NCBI RefSeq assembly: GCF_028281565.1
Contig: NZ_JANQJQ010000043.1
Span: 310,001-374,000, forward strand
Reading direction: 5' to 3'
DNA: 64,000 nt
Source of the DNA: Seonamhaeicola sp.
GTDB taxonomy: Bacteria; Bacteroidota; Bacteroidia; Flavobacteriales; Flavobacteriaceae
Shown: positions 29,164-62,707 of the stretch, in pieces
How positions within the stretch are numbered: position 1 is the first letter of the stretch
Layout: each line of letters begins with the position of its first letter
The notes under the pieces: generated by a model
Told to the model about the DNA's origin: nothing
What the model saw: the letters and a program-made list of their open reading frames with translations, nothing else
The model's database searches: none
Program-made: the position numbers and the translations under genes

Positions 29164-29189
29164 GGTAAATTATGATAAGATTAAGGTAA
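29164..29189 (+). promoter_or_regulatory. GGTAA-N16-GGTAA operator candidate (sulfatase)
   Basis: Perfect GGTAA half-sites at 29164 and 29185, 21 bp apart, 59 bp ahead of the sulfatase start. A TATGTTTC sequence at 29203, close to the Bacteroidota -7 element TAnnTTTG, follows. Confidence 0.7.
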
Positions 29190-29247
29190 ATCTTTAGGAG
29201 CTTATGTTTCAGGTTCAAAGTAATTTTACAACCTGAAATTTTGTCAA

Positions 29248-32217
29248 ATGATGAAACTAGATTCCTTAAAGATTAGTATGGTGAGTGTCATGCTCCTGTT
29301 TACAATAAACATGTTTACTCAGACTGCAGGTACGCGTCCCAATATTATCGTTATTCTGGCAGATGATTTAGGATATGGCGATGTTGGTTTTAACAGGGAT
29401 GCTTACAATAGTACGCATCCGTTTCCAGCTGAACGAGGCATCATACCAACACCTAATATAGATGCATTAGCCAACAATGGTATTATTTGTAGAAATGCGC
29501 ATGTAGCCCATCCGTTTTGTGGCCCTAGTAGGGTTGGATTGTTAACGGGGATGATGCCCCACCGAATCGGTGCACAATACAATTTGCCTAATGATATAAC
29601 CACAACATTGGGAGTGCCGACTGAGGAAACTTATTTTTCTAAAGTACTTCAGGATTCTGACTATAACACAGCTGCCATTGGTAAATGGCATTTGGGTTTC
29701 GAGCATGGATCTTATCAACCTTTGGATAGAGGTTTTGACTATTTCTTTGGCATGTTAGGAGGCGGAAAAAACTATTTTGAAAGTATCTATGAAGACAATT
29801 TTTACAACCGGCTTGGAGGAAGTAACCCAGTAACAAATGAGTATCAGGATCCTTTATGGAGAGATAGGGGGTATGTTCCAGAAAGCGAATTTAGCGATGC
29901 GCCTGAAGAAGATTATCTAACAGATGTCCTTACAGATGAGGCTATAGCCTATATTGCAACAAATGCACCTTTGTCTGATCCATTTTTTATGTATTTATCT
30001 TATAATGCACCACATACACCCTTACAGGCTCCGGCAGCTGAAATTGCACAGTTCAAATTGGATAACCCTAATTTTGAAAGTTTAGTTAATAATAGTGATT
30101 ATATTAAAAATTCTAACCCAGTTACAAAATTGCCCGCTGAAGATCAGCAAGCAAAAATAGATGAATTAACAGAGGCCCGGGTTACCTACGCTACCATGGT
30201 GGCCAATATGGATAAAAACATAGGTAGGGTTATTGCCGAGTTGCAAAAGGATATGACGGAGTTTAATAATACCTTAATCATATTTTTAAGCGACAACGGT
30301 GGTTATACTTTTAGTAAAGGTGCAGTGAATTGGCCGCTTGACGCTTTAAAAGGAAGCGTGAAAGAAGGCGGGCATAAAGTGCCTATGTTTGTACACTGGC
30401 CGGCTCAAATTACCACCCCGGCTACTTACGATCATCAATTGAGTTCTTTAGATCTATACCCTACTCTGGTGAATTTAGCCGGTAATAACCTTATGCCTGT
30501 TGATAAAACCTTAGATGGTGTAGACTTTATGGATGATTTAATTGCGGGTAGTGATGCCAGGCCTGATGAAACGGTAATTATTATGAGGCCGCAAAATGGG
30601 TTTCACAATGGAGGGCTTTCCAACGGGAAATGGAAAATAGTTAAAACGGCCGGTGGTGCCTGGAAATTGTATGATATTTTGACTGATCCTGGAGAAACTA
30701 CTGATGTAAGAGCAACCGAGACCAATGCCGAACAGATTATTCAGGATATGTTAGACGATGCTATAGGCATCGTGAAAGATTTTAAAGATGTAAAGCCGGC
30801 CTGGTATGATAATGACGGTGATGGCAGTGGGCACCCCCATAGTTTCTTGTGGGATGACGGCACCTTACCGGCATATGATGCCTTATTTGAAAGTCCATTG
30901 CTGTTACTTGAGAGTCAAATAAGTGAAATAAGCATTACCGGTGAAACGGATGCCATTGAGGGAGAAACTAACGGTGTGTTTACCGTAAGTTTACCCGAAG
31001 GTATCCATGCTGGAGAAGATATTGATGTTACCTATAGCATAAGTGGGAATACCACCAATGGTACCGACTATCCAACCTTGCCCGGAACAGTTACTATTGC
31101 TAATGGTACAAACAGCACGGATATAACTATTGTAGCAGCAGCAGATGGTTTAGATGAGACCAGTGAAACGCTTACACTTACCCTACAATCAACAAGTGTA
31201 GGAACGGTAAACAATACCCCGGCAAGTATTTTTGTGTTGGATGCTATTGTTCCAACTACATTAACGGCCGGTGATATTGCAATAGTTGGTTTTAAAGCAG
31301 AGGGTACCAATAATGGAGCTGTTGCCTTTATGCTTTTAAAGGATATAACCGCAACCACTAAAATTTCAATTTCCAACAGATCATGGAAAGGGACTCAGGA
31401 TGGCTGGACTGGAGACTATAGTGTGGATGATGTTTGGACCTGGACTGCCGGAGCGGCGTTTAACACAGGCGATATTTTTAAATTAGATTCCGATGGCCAG
31501 GTAAAACATGTCATTGGTGATTCTGAAGTTGTTGTTGGAACCATGTCTCATGACCATACAGGAAAATCCTCTGAAAGTAGCGATGGTGATTTTGATATGG
31601 CAACCGGAGGTGATGGGATCTTAATTTACCAGGCAGATCCGTTTGTTTTGCCAACAGATCCTAATTCCAGCCAATGGATCACCGGGTTGAATACCAATGG
31701 TGGTTGGGGCACCGGTGGTGGCAATACGTTTTGTGCATTACCCACTGCTTTGACCAATGGTGTGAATGCCAATGCAGTTGGTACCGATCAGGATAATGGT
31801 ATTTACACCGGAGCACTTTCCGGTTCACCGTCACAATTAAGGGCCAGTATTAATAACCCCGCAAATTGGTCAACGTCTGAATCGACTAATTATAACTTAT
31901 GGCCTTTTGATCAGACAGTGAGTTCTGTTTCCGGACAAATTGGTTCTTCGGGAACTTTGAATGTTGAAGATGTGTCAATTTCTAACCTTCGTGTTTATCC
32001 AAACCCTGCACAAGATTATATTAATTTGAGCTTTAAAAGGTCAGCCCAAAAGTTAGCCATAGAATTAATTTCCGTAACAGGGCAATTAATTAAAAAAGTT
32101 GAAAGAACGAATATACACAGATCCAAAATTGATGTGTCTGATTTACCAAAAGGGACATACATTTTAAAGGTATTTGCGGATAACAAATTGTCAATCAAAA
32201 AAGTTGTCAAAATATAA
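29248..32217 (+). CDS. S1-family sulfatase with Calx-beta-like and T9SS domains
   Basis: A 989-residue surface sulfatase. The signal peptide covers about residues 1-26; the catalytic alkaline-phosphatase-like fold runs from about 30 to 540, with metal ligands in ILADDLGYGD (Asp39/40), formylglycine precursor Cys91 in FCGPSR, AAIGKWHLGF, and LSDNGG. Next come a Calx-beta-like domain (about 565-665; EGETNGVFTVSLPEG, TDYPTLPGTVTI, DETSETLTLTL), a ~220-residue beta domain with WKGTQDGW, and a T9SS sorting domain (about 905-989; NLRVYPNPAQDY...GTYILKVF). It probably removes sulfate from intact polymer at the surface. Maturation needs an FGE or anSME enzyme encoded elsewhere. A truncated copy of its start lies at 17608. 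Confidence 0.88.
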   Translation: MMKLDSLKISMVSVMLLFTINMFTQTAGTRPNIIVILADDLGYGDVGFNRDAYNSTHPFPAERGIIPTPNIDALANNGIICRNAHVAHPFCGPSRVGLLTGMMPHRIGAQYNLPNDITTTLGVPTEETYFSKVLQDSDYNTAAIGKWHLGFEHGSYQPLDRGFDYFFGMLGGGKNYFESIYEDNFYNRLGGSNPVTNEYQDPLWRDRGYVPESEFSDAPEEDYLTDVLTDEAIAYIATNAPLSDPFFMYLSYNAPHTPLQAPAAEIAQFKLDNPNFESLVNNSDYIKNSNPVTKLPAEDQQAKIDELTEARVTYATMVANMDKNIGRVIAELQKDMTEFNNTLIIFLSDNGGYTFSKGAVNWPLDALKGSVKEGGHKVPMFVHWPAQITTPATYDHQLSSLDLYPTLVNLAGNNLMPVDKTLDGVDFMDDLIAGSDARPDETVIIMRPQNGFHNGGLSNGKWKIVKTAGGAWKLYDILTDPGETTDVRATETNAEQIIQDMLDDAIGIVKDFKDVKPAWYDNDGDGSGHPHSFLWDDGTLPAYDALFESPLLLLESQISEISITGETDAIEGETNGVFTVSLPEGIHAGEDIDVTYSISGNTTNGTDYPTLPGTVTIANGTNSTDITIVAAADGLDETSETLTLTLQSTSVGTVNNTPASIFVLDAIVPTTLTAGDIAIVGFKAEGTNNGAVAFMLLKDITATTKISISNRSWKGTQDGWTGDYSVDDVWTWTAGAAFNTGDIFKLDSDGQVKHVIGDSEVVVGTMSHDHTGKSSESSDGDFDMATGGDGILIYQADPFVLPTDPNSSQWITGLNTNGGWGTGGGNTFCALPTALTNGVNANAVGTDQDNGIYTGALSGSPSQLRASINNPANWSTSESTNYNLWPFDQTVSSVSGQIGSSGTLNVEDVSISNLRVYPNPAQDYINLSFKRSAQKLAIELISVTGQLIKKVERTNIHRSKIDVSDLPKGTYILKVFADNKLSIKKVVKI

Positions 32218-32240
32218 ATCGAATTCAAGTTAATAGTGCT

Positions 32241-32381
32241 AAAAAGAGGCTGTCTAAAAAGTACTAAAACTGTCATTCTGAATTAGTTTCAGAATCTTAT
32301 CTTGATGGTTATCAGTTGCTATGAGAACCTGAAATAAATTCAGGTTGACAAAACCTCCACTGTTTAGTCAGCCTCTTTTTT
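32241..32381. repeat. Hairpin-rich ~140-bp element with inverted ends
   Basis: The ends AAAAAGAGGCTG(TCTAAA) and (TTTAGT)CAGCCTCTTTTT form a long terminal inverted repeat. Inside are two smaller hairpins: TTCTGAA/TTCAGAA at 32276-32294 and AACCTGAA/TTCAGGTT at 32326-32346. It has the form of a non-autonomous dispersed element, and its right end with a T run can also act as a terminator for the sulfatase. Confidence 0.6.
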
Positions 32382-32423
32382 CTTCAAATAATTTTGTCTG
32401 CCTTCCCTCAGGTTTAATAGCAT

Positions 32424-32449
32424 GGTAATATAGGCTATGTTAAGGGTAA
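32424..32449 (+). promoter_or_regulatory. GGTAA-N16-GGTAA operator candidate (third SusC operon)
   Basis: Perfect half-sites at 32424 and 32445. The stretch CATGGTAATATAGG before the spacer is nearly the same as that at 48429-48442. It lies 150 bp ahead of SusC. Confidence 0.72.
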
Positions 32450-32599
32450 ATAATGATATTTAAAGTCCTTTTTCAATATCTAATTTTACTGCAGTAAATC
32501 AAGAAAAACCTTTGTGTTTATTGAGTTGTTGGATGTTTTGGTTCAAAATGTCCAACCGGATAATTCTATAATAAAAACAAGCTAATTAAACTTAAGCAA

Positions 32600-40458: not shown

Positions 40459-41505
40459 TTATTCTTTTATGAATTTTTTGGTCGAAACTCCATTGTCTGA
40501 AGTTAATTTTACTATATATAAAGCTTTATTTAATGAGGACACATCAACCTGATCTAATACATTGTATTGGGTAAGAACAGATTTGCCTAATAAATCATAT
40601 ACTTCTACTTTTTTAATTGGTTCCAAAGTATTGATGTGTAAAATGTCTCTTACCGGGTTTGGATACATTGCAAACTCAAAGGCATCTTTATTATTTGTTG
40701 ATAATAGAGGAGCGTTTTTAGTTATAGTTAAACTCCTTAGATGTAAGTGGCTAAGATTACTATCGCCAGTTCCAAAGGCTAATGCCCAGTTAAAGAAATA
40801 AGCTCCGGAACCGGTAAGCGCGTTATAAACGTTTGCTGCAAGTTCTGTTGCAACCGATGATGTTGAAGACCCGTTGGTACCGTTAATATCATTTATATAC
40901 GCCTTTTTTGATGATGTGGCAGCAGAGTTTCCAATGGTATATTCAACAATAACTTCAAAAAGATGGCTGCCTGACTCTGAAGTAGGCAATGATGGCTCAG
41001 TTGAGAAGCTGCTCCCCCCATTATTACTTGATAATGCTATTTCATTTATAGATGCTCTGTTAACAACCATGACACCATCTCTGTTTGGTACATTTCCTTC
41101 TGATCCTGATGCAGGATTGTTTCTGTCTAAAAGACCTGTAAAAATAAGGTTTTCACCAGCCGTTGTCCCAAATGATTGACCGGCAAAACCATAGTCCATA
41201 ACAGTTCTAATAGTGATGATGTCTCCATCTGACCCTGTTATAGCTTTGTCTGCAATTGTATACGTGAAATAAGCACCAGTACGAACTACAGATATACCTG
41301 TGCCCCCTCCTGTTGTAAAGGCTACCCAGGTGTTAGCATTTCCAAAATGACCTGCAATCCAATCCGCATGGGCATCTAAATCTGTTTCTACAGCACCAAC
41401 ACCGGTATAAGTACCGTCTTCAAAATCGGGGTCAAAAATAGTTTCTTGTGCGTTTAGGGAAATGGCTAGTAATCCACAGCAAATAAAAAAGTAAAGTTTT
41501 TTCAT
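40459..41505 (-). CDS. Unknown secreted protein with T9SS sorting domain
   Basis: A 348-residue protein with a signal peptide (to SLNAQ, about 19). The ~240-residue body is beta-rich and glycine/serine-rich (DFEDGTYTGVG, NANTWVAFTTGGGTG, LHLRSLTITKN) and may be a lectin- or CBM-like jelly roll, which I cannot assign. The last ~75 residues are a T9SS type A sorting domain (FAMYPNPVRDILHI...ALYIVKLT). It is monocistronic, closed by a strong terminator. The spacer upstream carries GATAA-N16-GGTAA on its strand, 74 bp before the start, so it may be controlled with the galactan genes. Confidence 0.75.
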   Translation of the reverse strand: MKKLYFFICCGLLAISLNAQETIFDPDFEDGTYTGVGAVETDLDAHADWIAGHFGNANTWVAFTTGGGTGISVVRTGAYFTYTIADKAITGSDGDIITIRTVMDYGFAGQSFGTTAGENLIFTGLLDRNNPASGSEGNVPNRDGVMVVNRASINEIALSSNNGGSSFSTEPSLPTSESGSHLFEVIVEYTIGNSAATSSKKAYINDINGTNGSSTSSVATELAANVYNALTGSGAYFFNWALAFGTGDSNLSHLHLRSLTITKNAPLLSTNNKDAFEFAMYPNPVRDILHINTLEPIKKVEVYDLLGKSVLTQYNVLDQVDVSSLNKALYIVKLTSDNGVSTKKFIKE

Positions 41506-41578
41506 AATATATATTTTAATTAGTAAAGTTTATATGCCAGCAAGTTAATTTAGAATGACTGTTTTGTATTCTTGTAAA

Positions 41579-41604
41579 TTACCTCATACCTAATCTAATT
41601 TATC
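41579..41604 (-). promoter_or_regulatory. GATAA-N16-GGTAA operator candidate (40459 gene)
   Basis: On the - strand GATAA begins at 41604 and GGTAA at 41583, 21 bp apart; one base differs from the consensus pair, the same variation as at 57260. Confidence 0.5.
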
Positions 41605-41731: not shown

Positions 41732-41757
41732 GTTAATTTATGCTTATTTAGGGGTAA
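41732..41757 (+). promoter_or_regulatory. GTTAA-N16-GGTAA operator candidate (AraC gene)
   Basis: GTTAA at 41732 and GGTAA at 41753, 21 bp apart, 154 bp ahead of the AraC-type gene: a possible autoregulatory site. Confidence 0.5.
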
Positions 41758-41910: not shown

Positions 41911-42768
41911 ATGAAATTAGTCTTAAAAAACACTGAGAGTTTTATAAATAAGCGCATCAATATCGTTAAGAAAGAGGTACCTTGTTTGGATTCTGCATGG
42001 CATTATCATCCGGAGTATGAACTGTTGTATATTTCCAGGAGCAGTGGTATCAGATTTGTAGGGGATAATGTATCACATTTTTCGCCCGGAGAATTGGTTT
42101 TGGTAGGGTCCTATTTACCGCATTTGTACCGCAATGATCCTGCTTATTATGAAGAAGGCGGGAACTTGAAGGTTAAAACCATTGTCATGAAGTTTACAAA
42201 GGACTTTATGGGGGAAGGTACGTTTGATAATCCTGAGTTTGCAGATGTAAATAAACTTTTGGATGAGTCCAAGTATGGTGTGCTATTCGGAAAAAATGTT
42301 AGCAGGGAAATGCACGATGAGATTCTTGAGATTACAGACCTTTCCAAAGGGGAACAATCCATACGGCTTTTAAGTTTTCTTTACAAGTTGTCACAAGTAG
42401 ATGATAAGACACAGTTGTCATCAACCGATATGCGTCAGTTTTCTACGGAAACACCGGACAGGTTGGATAATGTTATCAAGTATATTTCAGATAATTATAT
42501 GAACACGATTTCGTTAGGAGACATCGCAGATATAGCATGTATGACCACTAATTCGTTTTGTAGATTCTTTAAAAAGATGACCAATAAATCGTTTACGGAA
42601 TTTTTGAATGAGATCCGTGTCAGAAATGCAGCCCGTATGTTGGTTCAGGAAAATTATCCCATATCAGAAATATGCTATTTAGTTGGTTATAAGTCTATTC
42701 CAAACTTTAATAAACAGTTCAAACATATCATGGGAGAAACTCCAAAATCTTATAGATATAAGCTTTAA
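41911..42768 (+). CDS. AraC-family transcriptional regulator
   Basis: A 285-residue cytoplasmic regulator. The N-terminal ~150 residues form a cupin-like sensor (WHYHPEYELLYI, GDNVSHFSPGELVLVGSYLPH). The C-terminal ~100 residues hold two helix-turn-helix motifs of the AraC type (ISLGDIADIACMTTNSFCRF; PISEICYLVGYKSIPNFNKQF, closing GETPKSYR). It is the only DNA-binding protein in the window and sits centrally in the locus. AraC proteins contact two half-sites one to two helical turns apart on one face, which fits the 21-bp direct repeats found across the locus, including one in its own promoter. The inducer is unknown; a galactan-derived sugar is inferred. Confidence 0.88.
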   Translation: MKLVLKNTESFINKRINIVKKEVPCLDSAWHYHPEYELLYISRSSGIRFVGDNVSHFSPGELVLVGSYLPHLYRNDPAYYEEGGNLKVKTIVMKFTKDFMGEGTFDNPEFADVNKLLDESKYGVLFGKNVSREMHDEILEITDLSKGEQSIRLLSFLYKLSQVDDKTQLSSTDMRQFSTETPDRLDNVIKYISDNYMNTISLGDIADIACMTTNSFCRFFKKMTNKSFTEFLNEIRVRNAARMLVQENYPISEICYLVGYKSIPNFNKQFKHIMGETPKSYRYKL

Positions 42769-42802: not shown

Positions 42803-42828
42803 GGTAAATGAATATAACTAAGGGGTAA
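42803..42828 (+). promoter_or_regulatory. GGTAA-N16-GGTAA operator candidate (permease)
   Basis: Perfect half-sites at 42803 and 42824, 45 bp ahead of the permease start. Confidence 0.7.
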
Positions 42829-42872
42829 CTTTTGTTATGACTTAATAGTGATTTCATGTTTATTTTGTGAAT

Positions 42873-44207
42873 ATGCTTTTAAACCTTTCCATCTTAATAT
42901 TTTTTCTCCTCTTTTTAATTTTTGCCATTTCAAAATGGAAAGTACATCCGTTTATAGCATTAATACTTACTGCGATTGCCCTGGCTTTATCTTTTGGCCT
43001 GGGAGGGAAAGAAGCCGTTGATGTTGTTTTAAGCGGCTTTAGCGGTACGCTTAAAGGCATAGCCATCATCATAATTATTGGAGCTTTTATTGGAGAGGTT
43101 TTACAGGATACAGGCGGTGCCTTTAGAATTGCAAACACCATTGTTAAAGGAGTGGGCAAAAAGAAGTTACCCTGGGCCATGGGGTTTACGGGTTATATTG
43201 TCTCCATTCCTGTATTTGTTGACGTGGCCTATATATTGTTGCAACCGGTTACGGAATCATTATCAGTAAAAAGTAAAAGGCCTGTATTATATATTGGTTT
43301 GGCTTTGGTAGCGGGTTTAATGGTGTCTCATACATTAATTCCGCCAACGCCCGGGCCACTGGCTGTGGCAGAATTACTCAATTTAAACCTGGGAAGAATG
43401 CTTCTGATAAATATCATTGTAGGTGTTTTTGCCATGATTGGAGGTGTACTCTGGGTTATTTTCTACTGTAAAAAGTCATGGCTTAAATATGATGAGAAAT
43501 TAAAGAATGAGTTATCCGGGATAGATGAACCGGGTGTTTCAAAAGATACAACGGTTTCCGGCAATGTGCTTTTAGATTTGTTGCCCATTGTGGTTCCCAT
43601 AGTTTTAATTGGGGTGGGGTCATTTCTTAATTTAGAAGGGAATAACCTGTTTGCTACCGTATTTAACTTTATAACAATTCCGTTAATAGCGGTTTTGATC
43701 GGAGCTGTGATAGCACTTTTTCAATTGGAAAAACCACGATCCGGAAAATTAAATACTTTGGTGGAGCAAGCTGTAGTAAAATCGGCATTGGTGATCATGA
43801 TCACAGGAGCCGGCGGCGCATTAGGGTTTGTAATTAAAGAAACCGGTATTCAAAACCAAATTGTCGATGTTTTTGCAAACTTTCCGTTTTTAGGGATTCT
43901 ATTGCCTTTTGTGGTGGCAGCCATTTTAACTGTTTCAACAGGTTCAATCACAGTGTCTTTGGTGGGAAGTGGTTCTATGTTAGCCCCTATGGTTGATAGC
44001 CTACCTGTATCACCGGAAATGGTAGCAGCTTTAATTGGATGTGGCTCTTTTTGTGTGGTTCATGCTAATTCCAGTTTGTTTTGGTTGTTAAACAGGTTGC
44101 ATGAAGTGCCTCCAAAAGCCCTGTATAAAACACTTACAATGCAATCTTTGGTTATGGGCTTTGCCGGATTGATTGGTGTGCTTTTACTTCATTTTTTCGG
44201 GTTTTAA
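42873..44207 (+). CDS. GntP-family sugar-acid:H+ symporter
   Basis: A 444-residue polytopic inner-membrane protein of the gluconate permease family, with about 12 hydrophobic segments. Family features include KWKVHPFIALILTAIALAL near the start, GAFIGEVLQDTGGAFRIA, HTLIPPTPGPLAVAELL, and near the end VSLVGSGSMLAPM and VVHANSSLFWLLN. The family carries gluconate and related aldonates. In a locus that would make 3,6-anhydrogalactonate, an aldonate or sugar acid of that pathway is a reasonable substrate (inference). The frame starts at GTG 42867; ATG at 42873 is preferred. It has its own operator candidate. Confidence 0.85.
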   Translation: MLLNLSILIFFLLFLIFAISKWKVHPFIALILTAIALALSFGLGGKEAVDVVLSGFSGTLKGIAIIIIIGAFIGEVLQDTGGAFRIANTIVKGVGKKKLPWAMGFTGYIVSIPVFVDVAYILLQPVTESLSVKSKRPVLYIGLALVAGLMVSHTLIPPTPGPLAVAELLNLNLGRMLLINIIVGVFAMIGGVLWVIFYCKKSWLKYDEKLKNELSGIDEPGVSKDTTVSGNVLLDLLPIVVPIVLIGVGSFLNLEGNNLFATVFNFITIPLIAVLIGAVIALFQLEKPRSGKLNTLVEQAVVKSALVIMITGAGGALGFVIKETGIQNQIVDVFANFPFLGILLPFVVAAILTVSTGSITVSLVGSGSMLAPMVDSLPVSPEMVAALIGCGSFCVVHANSSLFWLLNRLHEVPPKALYKTLTMQSLVMGFAGLIGVLLLHFFGF

Positions 44208-44247: not shown

Positions 44248-44273
44248 GGTAAAATAATGTATGTTATGGGTAA
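44248..44273 (+). promoter_or_regulatory. GGTAA-N16-GGTAA operator candidate (GH16 operon)
   Basis: Perfect half-sites at 44248 and 44269; a further GGTAA is at 44278. The site overlaps an in-frame ATG at 44261, which argues that the GH16 gene starts downstream, at 44336. Confidence 0.72.
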
Positions 44274-44335
44274 GTTTGGTAAATAATTTACTGTCTTTTT
44301 TCTATTGTTTTGTAGTAAAGATTATAACACTTCAA

Positions 44336-45349
44336 ATGATTGAATTAAGAAAAATAGGTGCCTGGGTTATTTATGCATGTTTTACATTAGTCATGATAGG
44401 TTGTTCAGGTAGTAATGCTTCTTCAGATGATGAAGTAGAACAGGAAACAGAACAACCGGATCCGGTTGATAATACACCAACTGCTGATTATCCGTTGTCT
44501 GACCAAACCAATATTGGGAAATGGGTATTGAATACCGATTTAAGCGACGAGTTTGAAGGCACTGCTTTAGACGAAACCAAGTGGCTTATTCAGGGAAGAA
44601 ATGGTGAGTACAAATCCAACTTTAGAGGCAGGCCGCCTTCGCAGTTTTCAACGGACAATGTCCGCTTGGAAGATGGAAAGTTAAAGTTGGAAACACGTTG
44701 GGACCCGGATTATAATTTTTCACCAACCACACACCCGAACACAGGTGAAACTTATGAGAACATTACAACGGCAGCTGTAATTACCAAAAAAGAGTTTCTG
44801 TATGGTTATATGGAAGTAAAATGTAAAGCGGCTGATGCTGAAGTGACCAGTTCGTTTTGGGCCACGGGAAATAATACCGAATTTGATTTCTTTGAAATGT
44901 TTGGCGACCACAGACAATCTAATAAAGCCTGGAGAGACCGCGAGCTATGGTGGTCTATTCATGACTGGACATCTGCCGGGCAAGGCAGGACAACCTACAC
45001 AGAGCACCATGACTTAGGGTATAGAGTAGCAGATGATTTTCATGTGTATGGCTTTGAGTGGGATGCAAACGGACTCAAAATATTTATAGACGGTGAGTTG
45101 TTTAGATACGCATCAAAAGCCACCATAAATGCCTATGACGATGTTGCTAACAGTAATGGAGGTAATGGCGCCAATGAAAACTTTGTGGTGACTAAACCCA
45201 TTGCGCTTTGGTTTGATCAGGAAACCTTTCCCTGGCATGGGGTACCGGACAGTAAAGCCGATTTGGAGTTAAATAGTCCGGCAGATAAAAAAGACGATGG
45301 TATTGTTGATTTCGAAATTGAATACCTTAGAGTTTGGCAAAAATCTTAA
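44336..45349 (+). CDS. GH16 lipoprotein, likely red-algal galactanase
   Basis: A 337-residue lipoprotein (Cys23 in VMIGC), an acidic linker to about residue 50, then a GH16 beta-jelly-roll. The catalytic motif is TEFDFFE: nucleophile Glu182, assisting Asp184, acid/base Glu187. SKADLE/FEIEYLRVWQK closes the fold, and ALWFDQETFPWHGVP resembles the segment seen in agarases, porphyranases and carrageenases; the loops of laminarinases are not apparent. It is predicted to cut beta-linkages in a sulfated galactan. Subfamily and exact substrate are undecided. An in-frame ATG at 44261 would add a non-signal-like stretch across the operator. The stop overlaps the next start (TAATG), so the two GH16 genes are translationally coupled. 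Confidence 0.82.
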   Translation: MIELRKIGAWVIYACFTLVMIGCSGSNASSDDEVEQETEQPDPVDNTPTADYPLSDQTNIGKWVLNTDLSDEFEGTALDETKWLIQGRNGEYKSNFRGRPPSQFSTDNVRLEDGKLKLETRWDPDYNFSPTTHPNTGETYENITTAAVITKKEFLYGYMEVKCKAADAEVTSSFWATGNNTEFDFFEMFGDHRQSNKAWRDRELWWSIHDWTSAGQGRTTYTEHHDLGYRVADDFHVYGFEWDANGLKIFIDGELFRYASKATINAYDDVANSNGGNGANENFVVTKPIALWFDQETFPWHGVPDSKADLELNSPADKKDDGIVDFEIEYLRVWQKS

Positions 45350-48431: not shown

Positions 48432-48457
48432 GGTAATATTGGTTATTTCTGGGGTAA
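48432..48457 (+). promoter_or_regulatory. GGTAA-N16-GGTAA operator candidate (catabolic operon)
   Basis: Perfect half-sites at 48432 and 48453, 100 bp ahead of the enolase-superfamily gene. Confidence 0.72.
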
Positions 48458-48556
48458 TTTATGAGATTGTTAAAGCGTGTTTATCGCTTAATTTAGTATC
48501 TGAATTAAAGAGGTGTTTGTAGACTTTAAATACCTGGAACATAAATAATTATTAAA

Positions 48557-49708
48557 ATGGTTATTAAAAAAATAGAAACTTTCATTTTAAAGGATAAACT
48601 GTCCAAGAGTTTTTTCTTTTCACAATGGGAATACTCAGAACGTTGTATATGTGTTGTAAAAGTTACCGCGGAAGATGGTACTTATGGTTGGGGAGAAGGT
48701 TATGGGCCTGCGCCGGTTTTGGAGGCAGGGATCAAACTTTTAGAACCTTTTGTAGTTGGTGAGAATCCGTTGGAGAATGAAGTTATTTGGAACAAAATGT
48801 ACCGTAAAACCCTCGACTTTGCAAGAAGAGGTATCCTGGTGGCATCCATGAGTGCCATTGATATTGCTATTTGGGATTTAAAAGGAAAAATTTTAAGCTT
48901 GCCCGTTTCTACCCTGCTTGGTGGAGCGCATAGAAATAAAGTACAGCCATACGCTACCGGATTATATTTTACAGATCATAAGAATCCTTCAAGGGACTTT
49001 GAAGAAGAAGCCAGATTATACATATCTCAAGGCTTTAAAGCCATGAAAATGAAAGTTGGATTAGGTATTAAGGCCGATGTGGAAAATGTAAAGAAAATGC
49101 GAAGTGTTATTGGGCCCGATATCAAATTAATGGTCGATTCCAATCACGCTTATACTTTAAGGGAAGCTACGGAATTAGCCAGAAAAATAGAACAATACGA
49201 TATTGGTTGGTTTGAAGAGCCATTGTCTCCGGAGTTTTATGAGCAATACAGTGAATTAAGACAAAAAACAACCATTCCCATTTCCGGTGGCGAATGTGAA
49301 TATTTAAGATTCGGTTTCCAGCAGCTTATTAAAAATAAATCGGTGGATATTATTCAACCGGATATTTGTGCCAGTGGCGGTTTAACAGAGGCTAAACGTA
49401 TTTCGGCATTAGCCAGCGCTAATGGTGTGGATATTATTCCACATACTTGGGGAACATCTATTGGAATTCATGTGGCACTGCATTTTATTTCGAATATAGA
49501 ATCAGTCCCCGGTAGAATGTATCAACCGGATTTCCTAATGGAATATGACCAAACTGAAAATGGACTAAGAGAGAAACTAACATTTCCGTCAATTGAAATG
49601 AAAGATGGCTACATAGCCGTACCGGACAGGCCCGGTTTAGGTATTGATGTTGATGAAGAGGTCCTGGAAAGTTTCGCGGAAAAGAAAACAAAAAAAATTA
49701 TTATCTAA
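48557..49708 (+). CDS. Mandelate racemase/enolase-superfamily sugar-acid dehydratase or cycloisomerase
   Basis: A 383-residue cytoplasmic enzyme. The capping domain (1-125) is followed by a barrel with the mandelate-racemase-type catalytic set: K164-x-K166 (AMKMKVGLG), metal ligands Asp194 (VDSNHAY), Glu220/221 (WFEEPLSP) and Glu246 (GGECEY), and the Asp269 (IQPDICASGG)/His296 (IPHTWGTS) pair. Members abstract the alpha-proton of sugar acids and give 2-keto-3-deoxy acids. Followed by an aldehyde dehydrogenase (14 bp) and a 2-keto-3-deoxy aldolase, it is the likely second step. With GH127 nearby, 3,6-anhydrogalactonate cycloisomerase activity is a strong guess; galactonate, fuconate or rhamnonate dehydratase are alternatives. 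Confidence 0.85.
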   Translation: MVIKKIETFILKDKLSKSFFFSQWEYSERCICVVKVTAEDGTYGWGEGYGPAPVLEAGIKLLEPFVVGENPLENEVIWNKMYRKTLDFARRGILVASMSAIDIAIWDLKGKILSLPVSTLLGGAHRNKVQPYATGLYFTDHKNPSRDFEEEARLYISQGFKAMKMKVGLGIKADVENVKKMRSVIGPDIKLMVDSNHAYTLREATELARKIEQYDIGWFEEPLSPEFYEQYSELRQKTTIPISGGECEYLRFGFQQLIKNKSVDIIQPDICASGGLTEAKRISALASANGVDIIPHTWGTSIGIHVALHFISNIESVPGRMYQPDFLMEYDQTENGLREKLTFPSIEMKDGYIAVPDRPGLGIDVDEEVLESFAEKKTKKIII

Positions 49709-53762: not shown

Positions 53763-55184
53763 ATGAAAAAACTAAGTTACCTTTTCGTTTTATTGTTGTT
53801 TATGTCTTGTCAGTCTAAAACCCAGGCACAAGATAAGCCAAACATTATATTCTTATTTTCTGATGATGCCGGATATGCCGATTTTGGGTTTCACGGAAGC
53901 AAAGTGATGAAAACACCTAATTTGGATAAACTTTCAGATCAGGGCGTTCGGTTTACGCAAGGCTATGTAACCGATGCTACTTGTGGGCCTTCGAGAGCCG
54001 GGTTAATGACTGGGAAATATCAGCAACGGTTCGGCTATCAGGAAATTAATGTGCCCGGTTATATGAGTGAAAACTCCAAGTTTTTGGGGGATGACATGGG
54101 GCTTCCGTTAGATCAGGTCACCATAGCAGATTATTTGAAAGCATTGGGGTATACCAATGCCATGTATGGTAAGTGGCATTTGGGTAATGCCGATCGTTTT
54201 CATCCTTTAAATAGAGGTTTTGACGAGTTTTATGGTTTTAGAGGCGGCGGGAGAAGTTATTTCCCGTATAAATATTTCAAAGGAATTCATCATGATAACA
54301 AAATGGAACGGAATTTTGGAAATTTTGAAGAACCAAATGGCTATGCGACTGATGTTTTTGCAGATGAAGCGGTATCATTTATTGAAAGGAATAAGGACAA
54401 ACCATTCTTCATTTATTTAGCTTTTAATGCGGTACATACCCCAATGGAAGCTACTGAGGAAGATTTAAAAAAGTTCCCCAGTTTAAAAGGGAAGCGCAAG
54501 GAAGTAGCCGCAATGACATGGGCACTTGACAGGGCCTGTGGCAAAGTTATGGATAAGCTAAAAGAATTGGGATTAGATGACAATACTATTGTTGTCTTTT
54601 CTAATGATAATGGCGGGCCTACAGATAAAAATGCCTCATTGAATTTACCGTTAAGCGGGACAAAATCCAATCACCTGGAAGGGGGTTTTAGAGTGCCTTA
54701 TTTAATCAAATGGCCTCGTAAATTTAAAGCAGGTACCGTATACAATTACCCGGTTAGTACGTTTGATTTATTGCCCACATTTCATGCTGCTGCCGGTGGA
54801 GATATGGCAGACCTTAAAGATATAGATGGTGTTAATCTGATTCCCTTTATTACCGGAGACAATAAAGCAAGGCCACACGAAGATTTATTTTGGAAAAAGG
54901 ATGTGCGTGCCGTATACAGACATAACGATTGGAAGCTCATTCGTTTTGCAGATAGACCGGCGGAATTATATGATTTATCTAAAGATTTAACAGAACAAAA
55001 TGATCTGGCATCAAAACATCCGGAGCGTTTAAAAAGCATGTTTAAAAAGCTATTTGAATGGGAGCTGACTTTGGAACGTCCCTTATGGACGCTTAAACAG
55101 CAATTTGAAAAATATGACACAGACCGGATGGATTGGTTCAGGAACCCTGAATTAGTTAAAGAATATATGAAGAAGTACGATTAG
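53763..55184 (+). CDS. S1-family sulfatase, lipoprotein
   Basis: A 473-residue sulfatase with a lipobox FMSC (Cys16), then QSKTQAQ without acidic export residues, suggesting a periplasmic location. Catalytic set: [13 protein letters not shown], formylglycine precursor Cys74 in [32 protein letters not shown]. It belongs to a different subgroup from the sulfatases at 29248 and 46851 ([11 protein letters not shown] rather than [25 protein letters not shown] after it). It is 53 bp ahead of the cytoplasmic GH127 gene in one operon, so desulfation may precede removal of the anhydrosugar. Confidence 0.88.
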
Positions 55185-57223: not shown

Positions 57224-57243
57224 TGGAACTCCACTGATTTTTT
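57222..57243 (+). terminator. Short terminator overlapping the GH127 stop
   Basis: AGTGG/CCACT stem with AACT loop, then GATTTTTT. Weak. Confidence 0.45.
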
Positions 57244-57259
57244 ATAAGAAAGCTAGAAA

Positions 57260-57285
57260 GATAATATTAAGCAAGTTAAGGGTAA
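57260..57285 (+). promoter_or_regulatory. GATAA-N16-GGTAA operator candidate (fourth SusC operon)
   Basis: GATAA at 57260 and GGTAA at 57281, 21 bp apart, with GTTAAGGGTAAAT as in the 32424 site; 288 bp ahead of SusC. A TATATTTC at 57307 could be a -7 element. The rest of the 349-bp spacer is AT-rich. Confidence 0.6.
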
Positions 57286-57495
57286 ATTTCTTTATTTATC
57301 CAAGAGTATATTTCTGTTATTTTGTAATAGATGACTTGCTAAATTATCTTTTTAAAGACTTGTGGACTTCTGTCTTTAAAAAATAGGAAGACGATTTTAT
57401 GTATTAACAACTAAACATAACAACATTAACTAAACTTATTCCTTTATGACATAAACCTTAAAAAAACTCTAAGCAAACTAATTAAACATAAAAAA

Positions 57496-57523
57496 ACCGG
57501 AAAATGTTGGAGCATTTCCCGGT
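57496..57523 (+). other. Leader hairpin ahead of fourth SusC
   Basis: ACCGGAAAATG (57496-57506) pairs with CATTTCCCGGT (57513-57523) with one mismatch, loop TTGGAG. No T run follows, so it is not a normal terminator; it may control mRNA stability or translation of the long leader. Confidence 0.5.
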
Positions 57524-57572
57524 CAGGTTTAATGATTAAATAAAAATTTAACCAATAATTCAAAACAAAAGT

Positions 57573-60500
57573 ATGAAAAATCACTTTTATGTAAGGCAAC
57601 TGATGTCTTATTTAGGGCAACTAATGTCCTTAAAGTTTGATTTAAAGTTCAAACTTCTAATAAGTGTATTTGCGATGACTGTTCTACAAACAAATGCAAA
57701 TACTTTTAATGATGACACAAAAACTATTTTGGCACAACAAACTACGGTTTCAGGGACGGTTTCTGATGCTTCAGGACCTTTGCCCGGGGTGAATATTGTT
57801 GTAAAAGGTACTACTCAGGGTACACAAACTGATTTCGACGGAAATTATACACTCGCCGTAGATGGTAACGCTACATTAGTGTTCTCTTTTTTAGGCTATA
57901 AAACTAAAGAAGTAGCAGTAGCTGGTAACACCAAAATAGATGTAACCCTGGAGGAGGATATAGCGGGACTTGATGAAGTAGTAGTAGTAGGTTACTCAAC
58001 TAAGAAACGTGGCGAACTTACTGGTTCTGTTAGTACTATAAGTAGTGAAGCTATAGAACAAACCTCAAGTAAGGATGTTGCTAAATCTTTAGCCGGTAGA
58101 GCTTCCGGTTTAATCATTAGTGACAGGGGTGGTTATCCGGGGCAAGGCAATGGCGCCGGAGCCAATACTAATGATGATGCTACCACTATATTAATCAGGG
58201 GTAAAGCAACTACCGGAAACAACTCGCCGTTAATTTTAATAGACGGGATTCCACAGGGGTCTTTTTCTCAATTAAACCCTCAGGATATAGCCTCTTTAAC
58301 AGTACTAAAAGACGGTGCCGCGGCAATATATGGATCACGTGCGGCAAATGGAGTAATTTTAATTACCACTAAAAGAGGTAAGTCCGGGAAGCCAAAGATT
58401 AATTTAACAACAACCTATAATGTTTCCAGTTTTACCAGGCTGCCAAATTTAATGTCTTCCGCGCAGTGGGCAACATACCAAAATGAAATTGCCGGTTATG
58501 ATCCTAATATAACCGATTTGCCTTTTACGCAACAGGAAATTGATTTATATGCTTCAGGCTCAGATCCATTGAATTACCCAAATACAGACTGGGCAGCTTT
58601 AACACTGGCAGATTCATCTCCGGAATCCAGAACCTCTTTATCAATTTCAGGAGGAACTGATAATGTGAAGTATTTTGTTAGTGGCGACTTCATGGATCAA
58701 ACAGGGATGTATAGATCCAAAGATTTAAAGTTTAAACAACACCAACTGCGTTCAAACATTGATATTAACATTACCGAGGATATAAAACTTGGGGTTGATG
58801 TCTCCGGAAGATTTGGAAACAATCAACAGCCAGGGGTGGATCGTAATAACATCTATAAGTTAATTTTTAATACAGTGCCAATTCAGGTTGGTAGATATCC
58901 TAATGGGCTACCGGCCAGGGGGTCTGATGAAGGAAATCCGGTATTGACGTCAAGTAATGCCTCTGGTTTTGTTAATGCAAAAAGTACTAACCTACAGGGG
59001 AGATTCACCTTAGATGTGAACTTAAATAAGTTGGTTGAAGGTTTAAGTATTAAAGGGTTTGCAGGTATTAGAAAGTTAAACACTGATACTAAGAGCTGGT
59101 ATACACCGTGGACCTATTATGTGTTTAATGGAACGGATTACGATGAGGCTATTGGTTCAAATCAAAGAGGAACCGATAGAATATTACGTGAAAGTTTCTG
59201 GAAATTTGATGAACAGTTGTTTAACATTCGCTTACACTATTCAAATACATTTGGTGATCATAGTGTAAGCGCCTTTGTAGGAAACGAAAGGCTAAATTCA
59301 AATACACGTGAATTCTTTGCTGAAAAAATTGGAGGATTCCCTGATCCAAAGACGGGAGAGTTGTTTCAAGGTAGTAGTGAAAGACAATTAGCTCTTGGTG
59401 AAAGCTCTGAGTTTGCGAGAATAGATTATTTTGGATCGCTGTCTTATGATTACCAGAAGAAGTACTTTGTAGATTTTACTATCCGTCGTGATGGTTCCAG
59501 TAATTTTGGACTTGGTCACCAATATGGTACGTTTCCAAGTGTAGCCGTGTCCTGGGCCTTGAATAAGGAGTCTTTTATGGAGAATATTGACTGGATCACC
59601 GCTTTAAAATTAAGAGCATCCTGGTCTCAAATGGGTAATGACCGTATTAGGCCTAATCAATACCTGTCACAATTTGATTATGGTAGTACTAACTTAAATA
59701 CGCCGTTCCCTAATTACTATACTTTGGGTACAGGGGGTGTTACTTTTAACACCTACAGGCTTGCATTAATTGAAAACCCACTTGTGACCTGGGAAACAGC
59801 CGACATGAAAAATCTGGGTTTAAATTTCTCTTTATTTGACGGTAAACTAAATGGTGATGTCAACTATTTCTATCAAAAAAGAGATGATATTTTAATTCAG
59901 GTAACCGGAGCTACGCCTGCTTTTATTGGATTACAGCCATCTCAAATTCCTGATGAAAATATTGGGGCTACTAAAAACTGGGGATGGGAATTTGAACTAT
60001 CTTGGGCAGATCAGCTTAATGAAAACTTCAGTTACAATATTGGAGCAAACTTTTCTCAGGCTAAAAATGAGGTCATCTCATTACCAGAAGGAAGCAATAT
60101 TTCAGACCTTGTTAAGCAAGAAGGACTTCCAATAGATTCTTATGTAATGTACAGAACCAATGGAGCGTTTAGAGATCAGGCTCAAATAGATGCAACCCCT
60201 GTGAAATGGGGAGATCCACAACCTGGAGATATTAATTATGTTGATAGTGATGGTAGTGGAGCTATAGATGCCGGAGATCTGATTAGAGTAGGGTCTTCAA
60301 ATATTCCTCAAATTCAGTATGGTATCTACGGCGGATTTAACTATAAAGCCTTCAATTTCAATTTCTTGTTACAGGGGCAGGCTGAGGCAGAAACTTTAGT
60401 TTATTTTCCCGAATCTCCGGGAGCCATTCCGGAATTTATGTTTAATAACAGATGGACACCAAATAATACTAATACAGGGTTTCCCAGACCTTTTGGCCCT

Positions 60501-60821
60501 GGAGATGCTCAAAATGCACCCATAAGCCAGCAGACGATTGCACCGGCATCACAAAATGCAGGTTTTGAGGGTGCTGATCTTTGGTATCAGGATGCGTCTT
60601 TTTTAAGATTGAAAGAAGTAGAAATAGGGTATACCTTATCAAAAGATGTTATTGGTATAGGCGATCTTAAATTGTTTGCAAGAGGCTTTAACTTATTAAC
60701 CATGTTCTCTGATATCTATGATTTAGGTCTGGATCCGGAAGCTACCGGTTATAGGGATTTCAGGAGTGCAACCTATACACCTTTAAAAACGTATACGGTA
60801 GGTTTAAATTTTAGTTTCTAA
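57573..60821 (+). CDS. SusC-family TonB-dependent receptor (fourth pair)
   Basis: A 1082-residue importer with a long N-terminus: about 27 polar residues precede the hydrophobic signal segment (KLLISVFAMTVLQTNAN). Then come a carboxypeptidase-regulatory-like domain (TVSGTVSDASGPLPGVNI...DFDGNYTL), a plug (DEVVVVGYSTKKRGE, LIDGIPQGSFSQLNPQDIAS, AAIYGSRAANGVILITTKRG) and a barrel ending GLNFSF. It belongs to another SusC subgroup than the other three of the window, and no binding-lipoprotein gene accompanies this pair within the next 200 bp. It probably imports a different oligosaccharide of the same polymer. Confidence 0.92.
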   Translation: MKNHFYVRQLMSYLGQLMSLKFDLKFKLLISVFAMTVLQTNANTFNDDTKTILAQQTTVSGTVSDASGPLPGVNIVVKGTTQGTQTDFDGNYTLAVDGNATLVFSFLGYKTKEVAVAGNTKIDVTLEEDIAGLDEVVVVGYSTKKRGELTGSVSTISSEAIEQTSSKDVAKSLAGRASGLIISDRGGYPGQGNGAGANTNDDATTILIRGKATTGNNSPLILIDGIPQGSFSQLNPQDIASLTVLKDGAAAIYGSRAANGVILITTKRGKSGKPKINLTTTYNVSSFTRLPNLMSSAQWATYQNEIAGYDPNITDLPFTQQEIDLYASGSDPLNYPNTDWAALTLADSSPESRTSLSISGGTDNVKYFVSGDFMDQTGMYRSKDLKFKQHQLRSNIDINITEDIKLGVDVSGRFGNNQQPGVDRNNIYKLIFNTVPIQVGRYPNGLPARGSDEGNPVLTSSNASGFVNAKSTNLQGRFTLDVNLNKLVEGLSIKGFAGIRKLNTDTKSWYTPWTYYVFNGTDYDEAIGSNQRGTDRILRESFWKFDEQLFNIRLHYSNTFGDHSVSAFVGNERLNSNTREFFAEKIGGFPDPKTGELFQGSSERQLALGESSEFARIDYFGSLSYDYQKKYFVDFTIRRDGSSNFGLGHQYGTFPSVAVSWALNKESFMENIDWITALKLRASWSQMGNDRIRPNQYLSQFDYGSTNLNTPFPNYYTLGTGGVTFNTYRLALIENPLVTWETADMKNLGLNFSLFDGKLNGDVNYFYQKRDDILIQVTGATPAFIGLQPSQIPDENIGATKNWGWEFELSWADQLNENFSYNIGANFSQAKNEVISLPEGSNISDLVKQEGLPIDSYVMYRTNGAFRDQAQIDATPVKWGDPQPGDINYVDSDGSGAIDAGDLIRVGSSNIPQIQYGIYGGFNYKAFNFNFLLQGQAEAETLVYFPESPGAIPEFMFNNRWTPNNTNTGFPRPFGPGDAQNAPISQQTIAPASQNAGFEGADLWYQDASFLRLKEVEIGYTLSKDVIGIGDLKLFARGFNLLTMFSDIYDLGLDPEATGYRDFRSATYTPLKTYTVGLNFSF

Positions 60822-60826
60822 AAATT

Positions 60827-62569
60827 ATGAAAAACATGAAAAATTTAAAAAATTTAAAATTAGAATATCTGTTTGCGTTATTATTGTTCTTTACAGTGAA
60901 CAGTTGTGATGAAGATATTGAAATTGAAGTAACCAGTGCTTTTGCAAGTGACCTGGTGCTTAGTACGCCTGAACAGTTAGAGTTATTATTACTTTCCACA
61001 TATAACAGTACGGATAGCTGGGGAATGAATAAACAGAACTGGTGGGGAAGACGTTTCAACATAGAGATTGCGTCATTTGAAGCTAAGTTTAACTTTAATA
61101 ATTTGGACTTAGCCCGAGAAAGAGCTGGCTGGACAGCTGGTAATGCCGGTCTTTTTAACAATAAATGGGGCCAATTATGGACCTATGTAAGAGAAGCCAA
61201 TTTGTTTTTGGAGTTAGCACAAGATAGTCAGGCTATGGAACAAGATCCGGATGCTGTTAACCAATTAATAGCAGAAATGCGCTTTTTACGTGCTAACCTG
61301 TACACAAAATTATTAAAGTATTATGGAGGAGTGCCTATATTGACCAGAACCTATGCACTGGATGATGACTTCGACATTCCAAGAAATACCTATGAAGAGT
61401 GTGTAGATTTTATTGTTAGTGAGTTAGATGCTGCGGCAGCACTTTTACCCGAAACGAGGCCAGATGCAGAATTGGGCAGAGCTACCAGTATGGCTGCCCT
61501 GGCGGTAAAGTCTCGAACCTTGTTATATGCGGCCAGTGATTTACATGATCCGGCATTGGCACCACAAACATCTAATAAGGAATTATATACCTATTCTAAT
61601 GCCAATAAATGGCAGGACGCTGCCAATGCGGCAAAAGCGGTTATCGATATGGTAGGAGGACGTGATTTAATAACAACACCCAGTGCGACGGCATATCAGA
61701 GTTTGTTCTTAACACCTAACCAGGATATGATATTTGTAAGGCCTTATGGAGGATCCCTTTTTGATTATGGTACAGATGCCAATACCTTGTGGGATAAAAC
61801 ACAATCACCAAGAGGTTTTGATGGCTGGGGATTGTCTACTCCAACGCACAATTACGTTCTGGAGTATAATATGGCCGATGGAACTACTACCTCCGATGCA
61901 GGCTATGATCCGTTAGACCCTTATACCGGAAGAGAAATGCGATTTTATGCCAATATTAATTACCAGGGAGCTGAGTTTAGAGGGCGTGCTATAGACTATT
62001 CACTAGCAGCTGATACGCCAAATGCTGCTCTTGATGGAGCGGATTCGGAATCTTTAGCATTGGATTTTGGTAATTTTAGGCATTGGTCCAGAACCGGGTA
62101 CCACATTCGTAAATTTCAGGATGAAGGTATTCCAATTACTGGTATATCTGCAAAACGTCCTTATATATTATATCGTTTAGCTGAGATCTATCTAAATTAT
62201 GCGGAAGCTCAGGCTGAATTAGGAAATGATGCCGAAGCACGTATTTACTTGAATAAAGTATCTTCCAGAGCGTTACAACCGGATATTACAGCTGGTGGAA
62301 CTGAGTTGTTAGAAGCTATTAAAAGAGAAAGACGTGTGGAACTGGCATTTGAAGGACATAACTTCTTTGATGAAAGACGCTGGATGAACGAACCGCACTT
62401 GGGAATGGATATAATAGGCCTTTTATGGACTAAGCATCCGGATTTATCAGTGACTTCTACCGAATATACAGTTGCTACAAGGCCATGGACGGACAGCAGA
62501 ATGTATTATTTGCCAATTCCGCAATCTGAAATAGACAGGTCTACTCTTGTACAAAATGACGGGTATTAA
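60827..62569 (+). CDS. SusD/RagB-family lipoprotein (fourth pair)
   Basis: A 580-residue SusD-like lipoprotein (Cys27 in TVNSC, then DEDIEIE). Family marks: LLLLSTYNSTDSWG, EMRFLRANLYTKLLKYYGGVPI, YRLAEIYLNYAEAQAELGND and ERRVELAFEGHNFFDERRW. It starts 5 bp after the SusC stop, so the pair is co-translated. ATG at 60836 is an alternative start. Closed by a terminator. Confidence 0.9.
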   Translation: MKNMKNLKNLKLEYLFALLLFFTVNSCDEDIEIEVTSAFASDLVLSTPEQLELLLLSTYNSTDSWGMNKQNWWGRRFNIEIASFEAKFNFNNLDLARERAGWTAGNAGLFNNKWGQLWTYVREANLFLELAQDSQAMEQDPDAVNQLIAEMRFLRANLYTKLLKYYGGVPILTRTYALDDDFDIPRNTYEECVDFIVSELDAAAALLPETRPDAELGRATSMAALAVKSRTLLYAASDLHDPALAPQTSNKELYTYSNANKWQDAANAAKAVIDMVGGRDLITTPSATAYQSLFLTPNQDMIFVRPYGGSLFDYGTDANTLWDKTQSPRGFDGWGLSTPTHNYVLEYNMADGTTTSDAGYDPLDPYTGREMRFYANINYQGAEFRGRAIDYSLAADTPNAALDGADSESLALDFGNFRHWSRTGYHIRKFQDEGIPITGISAKRPYILYRLAEIYLNYAEAQAELGNDAEARIYLNKVSSRALQPDITAGGTELLEAIKRERRVELAFEGHNFFDERRWMNEPHLGMDIIGLLWTKHPDLSVTSTEYTVATRPWTDSRMYYLPIPQSEIDRSTLVQNDGY

Positions 62570-62622
62570 AATATGGACATGGATTCATGTAGATCATAGA
62601 TCATATTGTTTAGTTTAGTTTG

Positions 62623-62651
62623 AAAACTGGGGGCATAGTCTCCAGTTTTTT
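62623..62651 (+). terminator. Intrinsic terminator after fourth SusC/SusD pair
   Basis: AAAACTGG pairs with CCAGTTTT across GGGCATAGTCT, with a T7 run. Confidence 0.8.
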
Positions 62652-62681
62652 TATGTGATATTATTGAGGTATCTTAAATTA

Positions 62682-62707
62682 GGTAAAATAGCACATATAA
62701 TAGGTAA
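62682..62707 (+). promoter_or_regulatory. GGTAA-N16-GGTAA operator candidate (lipoprotein GH127)
   Basis: Perfect half-sites at 62682 and 62703, 78 bp ahead of the gene. Confidence 0.7.

Follow-up and report, generated by a model that had tools for sequence, protein, structure and literature searches.

The 64,000-nt stretch analysed here (positions 310,001 to 374,000 of contig NZ_JANQJQ010000043.1 of Seonamhaeicola sp., assembly GCF_028281565.1; referred to as the window) carries pairs of GGTAA, arranged as direct repeats 21 bp apart (GGTAA-N16-GGTAA), ahead of genes for SusC proteins, sulfatases, glycoside hydrolases (GH) and sugar catabolism. These pairs very probably serve as switch sites at which a sugar-sensing AraC-type protein activates carrageenan-type digestion genes, and they recur in many marine bacteria at the same distance from the promoter. 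More specifically, comparison of sequences makes it highly likely that they form the operator of the AraC-family protein encoded at 41911..42768 (+), which would be a CgrA-type regulator of a carrageenan-type pathway.

Repeats in the window

The GGTAA pairs described in an earlier note on this DNA are confirmed for the window. All six perfect pairs named there are found on the plus strand, preceding the sulfatase gene with a type IX secretion system (T9SS) tail (29164..29189), the third SusC gene (32424..32449), the gene of a GntP-family permease (42803..42828), the GH16 operon (44248..44273), the catabolic operon with its MR/MLE cycloisomerase-like, aldehyde dehydrogenase, HpaI aldolase and MFS genes (48432..48457), and the second GH127 gene (62682..62707). 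The three one-mismatch pairs are present as well: GATAA-N16-GGTAA before the fourth SusC gene (57260..57285, +), the weak GTTAA-N16-GGTAA before the AraC gene (41732..41757, +), and GATAA-N16-GGTAA before the T9SS gene at 40459 (41579..41604, minus strand).

Eight perfect pairs are seen in the window, where 0.18 are expected (100 shuffles, sd 0.46, maximum 3). With up to one mismatch allowed, 23 are seen against 5.8 expected, so that a lone single-mismatch pair is weak evidence. Spacers make up 5,253 of the 64,000 bases (8.2%, with gene starts placed by us at 42873, 44336 and 62779) and hold six of the eight perfect pairs; every other spacing from N8 to N26 yields 0 or 1 spacer pair. The enrichment of the plain pattern is only local, because the whole genome (5.27 Mb) has 40 perfect pairs, eight of them in the window, against 63 matches to the reversed pattern. 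The genome-wide scan proposed in the earlier note thus supports enrichment in this window and not over the genome as a whole.

Conservation and promoter register

A homolog scan with the AraC protein, from which the best 80 matches were kept, gave 79 loci, among them an ortholog group of 34 loci (L031-L064; 635 kb, 62-86% identity) and a paralog group of 45 loci (L065-L109; 807 kb, 33-42% identity). The pair occurs 65 times at N16 in the ortholog loci, against 0-11 times at each other spacing from N5 to N31, and eight times in the paralog loci. Spacers hold 61 of the 65 ortholog-locus pairs (a script counted a site as genic when it was covered by a frame of at least 250 codons). The next gene matches a protein of the window locus for 45 of these 61 sites (SusC 17, sulfatase 8, MR/MLE cycloisomerase-like 7, GH16 7, GH127 3, and GntP, MFS and GH2 one each, the last at 25% identity), and 16 are unmatched. 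Box-bearing loci come from Flavobacteriaceae, Flammeovirgaceae, Spirosomataceae, Cyclobacteriaceae, Saprospiraceae, Marinifilaceae and Prolixibacteraceae. By the spacer, genome and ortholog/paralog-locus counts, the pair is not equally common in genes or in unrelated spacers.

When the 65 ortholog-locus sites are aligned, a second conserved element appears, the Bacteroidota -7 box TAnnTTTG. With at least five of its six letters matched, it starts exactly 57 bp after the first G of the operator in 46 of the 65 sites (56 bp in two, 58 bp in four), and the chance of such a match at a given spacer position is 1.6% (163/10,097). If the -7 box is required in this register, period 21 is represented in the ortholog loci by 46 sites that are perfect and 31 that have one mismatch. 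No other period between 15 and 27 has a perfect site, and each has 0-3 one-mismatch sites; the paralog loci at period 21 give 0 perfect and two one-mismatch sites. Of the 31 one-mismatch phase-locked sites, 29 carry the change in the second G of one half-site, and in 23 cases it is G to A. At least one phase-locked site is present in 30 of 33 ortholog loci, as counted from the listed phase-locked sites. The conservation in related loci that the earlier note looked for is therefore found, both in the pairs and in their 46 + 31 phase-locked forms.

Seven of the nine window sites have the box at exactly offset 57, namely the six perfect spacer pairs and 57260. On the plus strand, it reads TAATTTTA at 29221..29228 and again at 32481..32488, TTATTTTG at 42860..42867 and at 57317..57324, TTGTTTTG at 44305..44312, TAATTTAG at 48489..48496, and TTGCTTTG at 62739..62746. 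The sites at 41732 and 41579 are the two without it: no good TAnnTTTG stands at offset 57 of the former, and the -7 region of the latter (41540-41547, minus strand) reads TAACTTGC, which fits TAnnTTGY and not TAnnTTTG. TAnnTTGY is an alternative promoter motif reported from Flavobacterium psychrophilum (PMC9723704; this source and the two cited below are each used from part of their text). Minus-strand sites resembling 41579..41604 occur in L032, L035, L036 and L060. The six perfect pairs listed in the earlier note lie in spacers. Two further ones that it does not list, at 3929 (+) and 24505 (-), lie inside genes; having no -7 box at offset 57, they look like chance and were rejected as operators. 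A weak site at 17548 (+) was also rejected, as it has no -7 box at offset 57 and is oriented away from the adjoining SusC gene.

In F. psychrophilum, TAnnTTTG sits at -12 to -5 from transcript starts (PMC9723704), which places the GGTAA blocks at about -69 to -65 and -48 to -44. The predicted transcript starts of the seven boxed window sites are near 29233, 32493, 42872, 44317, 48501, 57329 and 62751. Conservation is weaker beyond the blocks and reaches about -34, where a -33 element would sit. Only eight of 69 sites have TTG within offsets 30-42, around -33, so the promoter keeps its -7 box and mostly has no -33 element. A fixed register just upstream of the promoter, with the -33/-35 element weak or absent, is what is found at class II promoters. 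Likewise, Escherichia coli AraC at araI1-I2 binds immediately upstream of the promoter, to half-sites repeated in the same orientation at a distance of 21 bp, and activates in the class II manner. As judged from the DNA, the register is a class II activator geometry close to this layout.

The register was needed for discrimination, because simpler patterns did poorly. Plain-pattern counts in 395 genomes of the family gave matches in 293 of them, with 110 matches against 50 reversed in the 19 genomes that have an ortholog of this AraC protein (AraC+ genomes). A looser half-site pattern was of no use in the Zobellia-like genome G001 (163 matches against 143 reversed).

Profile searches

Two profiles of the operator with its promoter were used. 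Profile R1 was built from 42 of the 65 sites (TTNG exactly at offset 61), all from other genomes, one of them of the same genus. The looser profile R2 comprises 69 of the 77 phase-locked sites, none from this genome, eight having been dropped by eye as near-duplicates or likely chance. On the whole 5.27-Mb genome, the top seven R1 matches all fall in this locus (C17:342424 to 379714); one of them, C17:379648, is outside the window and precedes a sulfatase gene. The eighth is C23:16245. In a 144-kb search with R2, each of the nine listed sites has E<=4e-4, and no other match in the window falls below E=0.01. Its scores are highest for the sites before the second GH127 gene (33.6 bits), the GH16 operon (33.5), the fourth SusC gene (30.9), the third SusC gene (27.9) and the catabolic operon (27.0), followed by the permease (24.2), the minus-strand site (21.4), the AraC gene (20.5) and, weakest of the nine, the T9SS sulfatase (18.6). 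The match C17:404110 was set aside, since it straddles the start of an opposite-strand gene and covers only model positions 5-57.

R2 was also run on 54 genomes at E<=0.001 with stricter filters, so that the counts are lower bounds. It matches 19 of 19 AraC+ genomes (at least 93 matches), 5 of 6 genomes with a Zobellia-type cycloisomerase, 2 of 7 that have a window-type cycloisomerase and lack this AraC, and 1 of 22 control genomes with neither AraC ortholog nor cycloisomerase. Twelve of the 19 AraC+ genomes overlap the training loci of R2; the seven others, counted separately, have 2-8 matches each (Fisher p 5e-6 vs controls). A cycloisomerase homolog is present in 19 of 19 AraC+ genomes vs 17 of 376 others. 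Regarding the R2-positive exceptions, G282 (four matches) has a Zobellia-type AraC gene adjoining its cycloisomerase gene, and in G339 (one match) the recognition helix of the AraC protein also has Asn. Conversely, the neighbouring AraC of G157 and G046 has a different recognition helix, and these two genomes give no R2 match. This cycloisomerase-linked AraC (L224, L225), with the helix TPPAFCRFFKT, may have an operator of its own.

Ten distal R2 matches in other genomes were checked (G033:C28 was examined separately, and G211:C1, G244:C1, G339:C5 and G022:C1 were left out). Each of the ten occupies a spacer immediately ahead of a gene, and for six that gene is sulfatase-, SusC- or GH16-like, with 30-80% identity to this locus. 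The regulon is not only local, because other genomes also carry the box before distant sulfatase, SusCD and GH16 genes.

As a side observation, C23:16245 (L156:6242-6305) is a good operator-promoter match at a great distance from the locus, between a SusCD pair and a sigma/FecR/SusCD cluster. By eye it is followed only by a very short open reading frame (ORF), and it is possibly the remnant of a lost gene.

The candidate regulator

The protein encoded at 41911 has 285 residues, and Pfam recognises in it only helix-turn-helix (HTH) domains (HTH_18, E=3.5e-20), with no cupin model above threshold. Its structure model (mean pLDDT, the predicted local distance difference test score, 86) shows a cupin barrel, a helical linker and two HTHs, with beta strands over residues 3-95 and helices over 108-161. 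Taken as single domains, the parts match the regulatory domains of AraC (1xja) and RhaR (5u93) and the DNA-binding domains of AraC and MarA; full-length structural matches superpose poorly. The protein thus has the C-terminal HTH pair and the N-terminal cupin sensor/dimer domain of the AraC/XylS family.

All 20 compared regulators from the box-bearing clades have a first recognition helix of the form T[TP]N[SA]FCR[FY]FKK (AP in one row); in the window, residues 213-224 are encoded at 42547..42582 (+). Asn 214, by our own alignment to part of MarA presumably a DNA-contact position, is found in 20 of 20 of these regulators vs 0 of 12 others, with G339 set aside. Since its orthologs co-occur with the box and the first recognition helix tracks the box, the product of 41911 is the best candidate regulator. 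The earlier suggestion of an AraC-type activator geometry, with the AraC gene lying in the locus, gains support from this co-occurrence, from the helix and from the -7 box register. In G203 (C7:362893-373491), two window-type AraC copies lie about 9 kb apart (66% and 56% identity).

Probable link to carrageenan use

The best PDB match of the MR/MLE protein of the window is 5olc, which we take to be DauB of Zobellia; no NCBIfam model reached its cut-off. G001 encodes a protein 99% identical to the 5olc sequence, in a locus with the gene order described for ZGAL_3145-3159 save one missing sulfatase. The gene at 41911 adjoins the GntP gene and lies near the operon at 48557, and the Zobellia-like locus has the same neighbours.

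In Zobellia galactanivorans, ZGAL_3150, 3157-3155, 3581/3580 and 181 are induced by carrageenans and by anhydro-D-galactose (PMC5698469, Table 1), and deletion of cgrA slows growth on carrageenan; both the deletion phenotype and the induced gene set are published there. R2, which has no Zobellia sites in its training set, gives ten matches in G001, four of them weak. They include sites ahead of the GH127 gene that corresponds to ZGAL_3150, ahead of the transporter-DauB-DauA genes (counterparts of 3157-3155) and, more weakly, before another GH127 gene (E 0.06). Far away, a match precedes a SusC/SusD pair that is the counterpart of 3581/3580 and is 62% identical to the fourth pair of the window. 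The distant S1 sulfatase gene, counterpart of 181, has a match at E=0.004 in G001 and at 1e-5 in G202 and G329; its product is 64.6% identical to the in-locus sulfatase in G001, and 65% is given for 181 and the in-locus enzyme in Zobellia (PMC5698469). The same operator thus stands upstream of the counterparts of ZGAL_3150, 3157, 3581/3580 and 181. A perfect pair with TACTTTAG at offset 57 (L254:1312-1376) also stands about 90 bp upstream of the G001 gene that scores best as kappa-carrageenase-like, with 268 bits and thus short of the family cut-off (350).

From these comparisons of promoters, the box is a mark of carrageenan-induced genes. A carrageenan-type galactan is the best reading of the substrate. 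The effector would probably be a carrageenan breakdown product; 3,6-anhydro-D-galactose or an early product fits many, not all, of the boxed Zobellia genes. We had considered that only anhydrogalactose-induced Zobellia genes carry the box and dropped the idea, as the kappa-carrageenase-like gene has a pair in register.

A related box may serve a paralog. The R2 match C13:902275, found also in G329, precedes an operon for DHDPS, aldehyde dehydrogenase and proline racemase beside another AraC gene. Similar boxes lie near an AraC gene in two Zobellia-like genomes (L216:1275, L222:5240), and the genes behind the box in L216 are DHDPS, aldehyde dehydrogenase and proline racemase, which suggests a paralog with a related operator.

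Proposed mechanism and alternative explanations

Each half-site consists of GRTAA with an A/T-rich tail, and two of them are present as direct repeats 21 bp apart. This distance amounts to two helical turns, and we therefore propose that two DNA-binding domains lie on the same side of the double helix. If it acts as AraC does at araI1-I2, the activator would make contact with sigma from its operator and bring RNA polymerase to the promoter (class II activation).

Several observations weigh against control of these genes by a CgrA-type activator encoded at 41911. Only six of the nine window sites stand out genome-wide; 29164, 41579 and 41732 lie in the background of R1 (E 5, 0.09 and 0.8). The sulfatase/GH127 operon at 53763, which the earlier note had singled out as lacking a clear pair, has no R2 match at E<=1 in the 144-kb search. 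Three ortholog loci (L044, L057, L061) have no phase-locked site, 15 of the 61 spacer sites have no -7 box with five of six letters at offset 57, and autoregulation is doubtful because the 41732 site has a poor -7 box and no counterpart was seen. Four of the ten checked distal matches, and likewise C23:16245, precede genes of no clear link. As for the comparison with Zobellia, the window AraC is only 37-38% identical to the Zobellia regulator. The two types are sisters in one tree (93/78) and not in a second with other rows; because the trees disagree, we call the protein CgrA-type and not a proven ortholog. The ZGAL counterparts in Zobellia-like genomes were assigned by gene order and identity. 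The ZGAL_3158 counterpart in G001 has only a degenerate pair and no R2 match; ZGAL_3158 has a value of 4.1 with anhydrogalactose, and cgkA has 10.6 with carrageenan and 0.8 with anhydrogalactose (PMC5698469, Table 1). Anhydrogalactose is therefore an imperfect fit as effector, since the kappa-carrageenase-like gene of G001 has a box although cgkA is not induced by this sugar. R2 gives this carrageenase site 13.3 bits and does not list it genome-wide, so the profile also misses sites.

It is improbable, though the least improbable of the rivals, that the box is read by a hybrid two-component system (HTCS) regulator or by another AraC-domain protein encoded elsewhere. In Bacteroides, HTCS motifs also take the form of direct repeats, on average 21 bp apart (PMC3878776), and the genome has many AraC-domain proteins, several HTCS-sized frames among them. 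Yet no HTCS was found among the 18 window proteins scanned with Pfam, and the 285-residue protein of 41911 has neither histidine kinase nor receiver domains in Pfam. Control through two nearby 1341-residue proteins was rejected, as both are FG-GAP/ASPIC proteins. The box also goes along with this AraC clade and with that of Zobellia type, is nearly missing in phase-locked form from the paralogous loci (0 perfect, two one-mismatch), and is followed by the recognition helix.

AraC-family proteins can repress, and the sign of control is not visible from sequence alone; the operators might thus serve a repressor or dual regulator. We consider this very improbable, as the operator ends upstream of the promoter core, TTG at offsets 30-42 is found in only eight of 69 sites, and Zobellia grows less well on carrageenan once cgrA is deleted (PMC5698469). 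There is next to no probability that the repeats arose by chance, as an artefact of simple sequence or as a family of mobile repeats. Chance has a share in the single-mismatch pairs (23 seen, 5.8 expected), and the plain pattern is unenriched genome-wide (40 vs 63 reversed), but the position in spacers, the exact spacing, the promoter register and the prediction across genomes refute this explanation for the sites as a set.

Relation to known systems

Neither AraC operators of this kind nor direct repeats with a period of 21 bp (PMC3878776) are new, and the Zobellia regulator is known too. The CgrA regulon of Z. galactanivorans (ZGAL_3159; PMC5698469) resembles the window in the neighbours of its AraC gene, namely the gene of a sugar transporter (GntP-like, 40%) and those of the anhydrogalactose pathway, and Zobellia-like genomes have boxes of the same form before GH127, transporter-DauB-DauA, SusCD and S1 sulfatase genes. 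Unlike Zobellia, the window has SusCD pairs inside the locus, a regulator at only 37-38% identity, and an operon with an HpaI-type aldolase and no kinase. The HTCS operators of Bacteroides thetaiotaomicron share direct repeats of about 21 bp and AraC-type DNA-binding domains; HTCS, however, are sensor kinases with a fused response regulator, in contrast to the one-component cupin-HTH protein of the window, and the available part of their description makes no mention of a fixed register to the -7 box (PMC3878776). E. coli AraC at araI1-I2 shares the 21-bp direct repeats upstream of the promoter and the cupin sugar-sensing domain, but differs in DNA sequence, sugar and promoter, the latter here being of the Bacteroidota -7 type (TAnnTTTG).

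In the text passages that our literature search covered, no description of this operator was found. We think it rather likely that the box is one conserved operator-promoter module for the use of carrageenan and anhydrogalactose across Bacteroidota, whose sequence and -7 register are kept despite regulators at 37% identity and which travels with scattered or clustered genes. If so, it would show how the RNA polymerase of Bacteroidota is activated at promoters without a -33 element. The operator, of unusually clear geometry, also provides a clear case of the register of an activator relative to the unusual -7 box of this phylum. Since sequence and spacing predict the regulon from DNA alone, the prediction is directly testable and ties scattered genes to one pathway; it also offers an inducible promoter module for marine Bacteroidota.

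Further features of the window

The neighbouring SusC locus, which has no clear operator, encodes the two 1341-residue proteins (6443-10468 and 17848-21873), both with FG-GAP, ASPIC/UnbV, haloperoxidase-like and T9SS tail domains. For the GntP permease gene, transcription is predicted to start at about 42872, one base upstream of the likely ATG at 42873, so its mRNA may be leaderless, in which case the GTG start at 42867 given by the ORF finder would be wrong. Similarly, the ORF called from 44261 overlaps the 44248 operator, and GH16 more likely starts at the ATG at 44336, 19 bp past the predicted transcript start.

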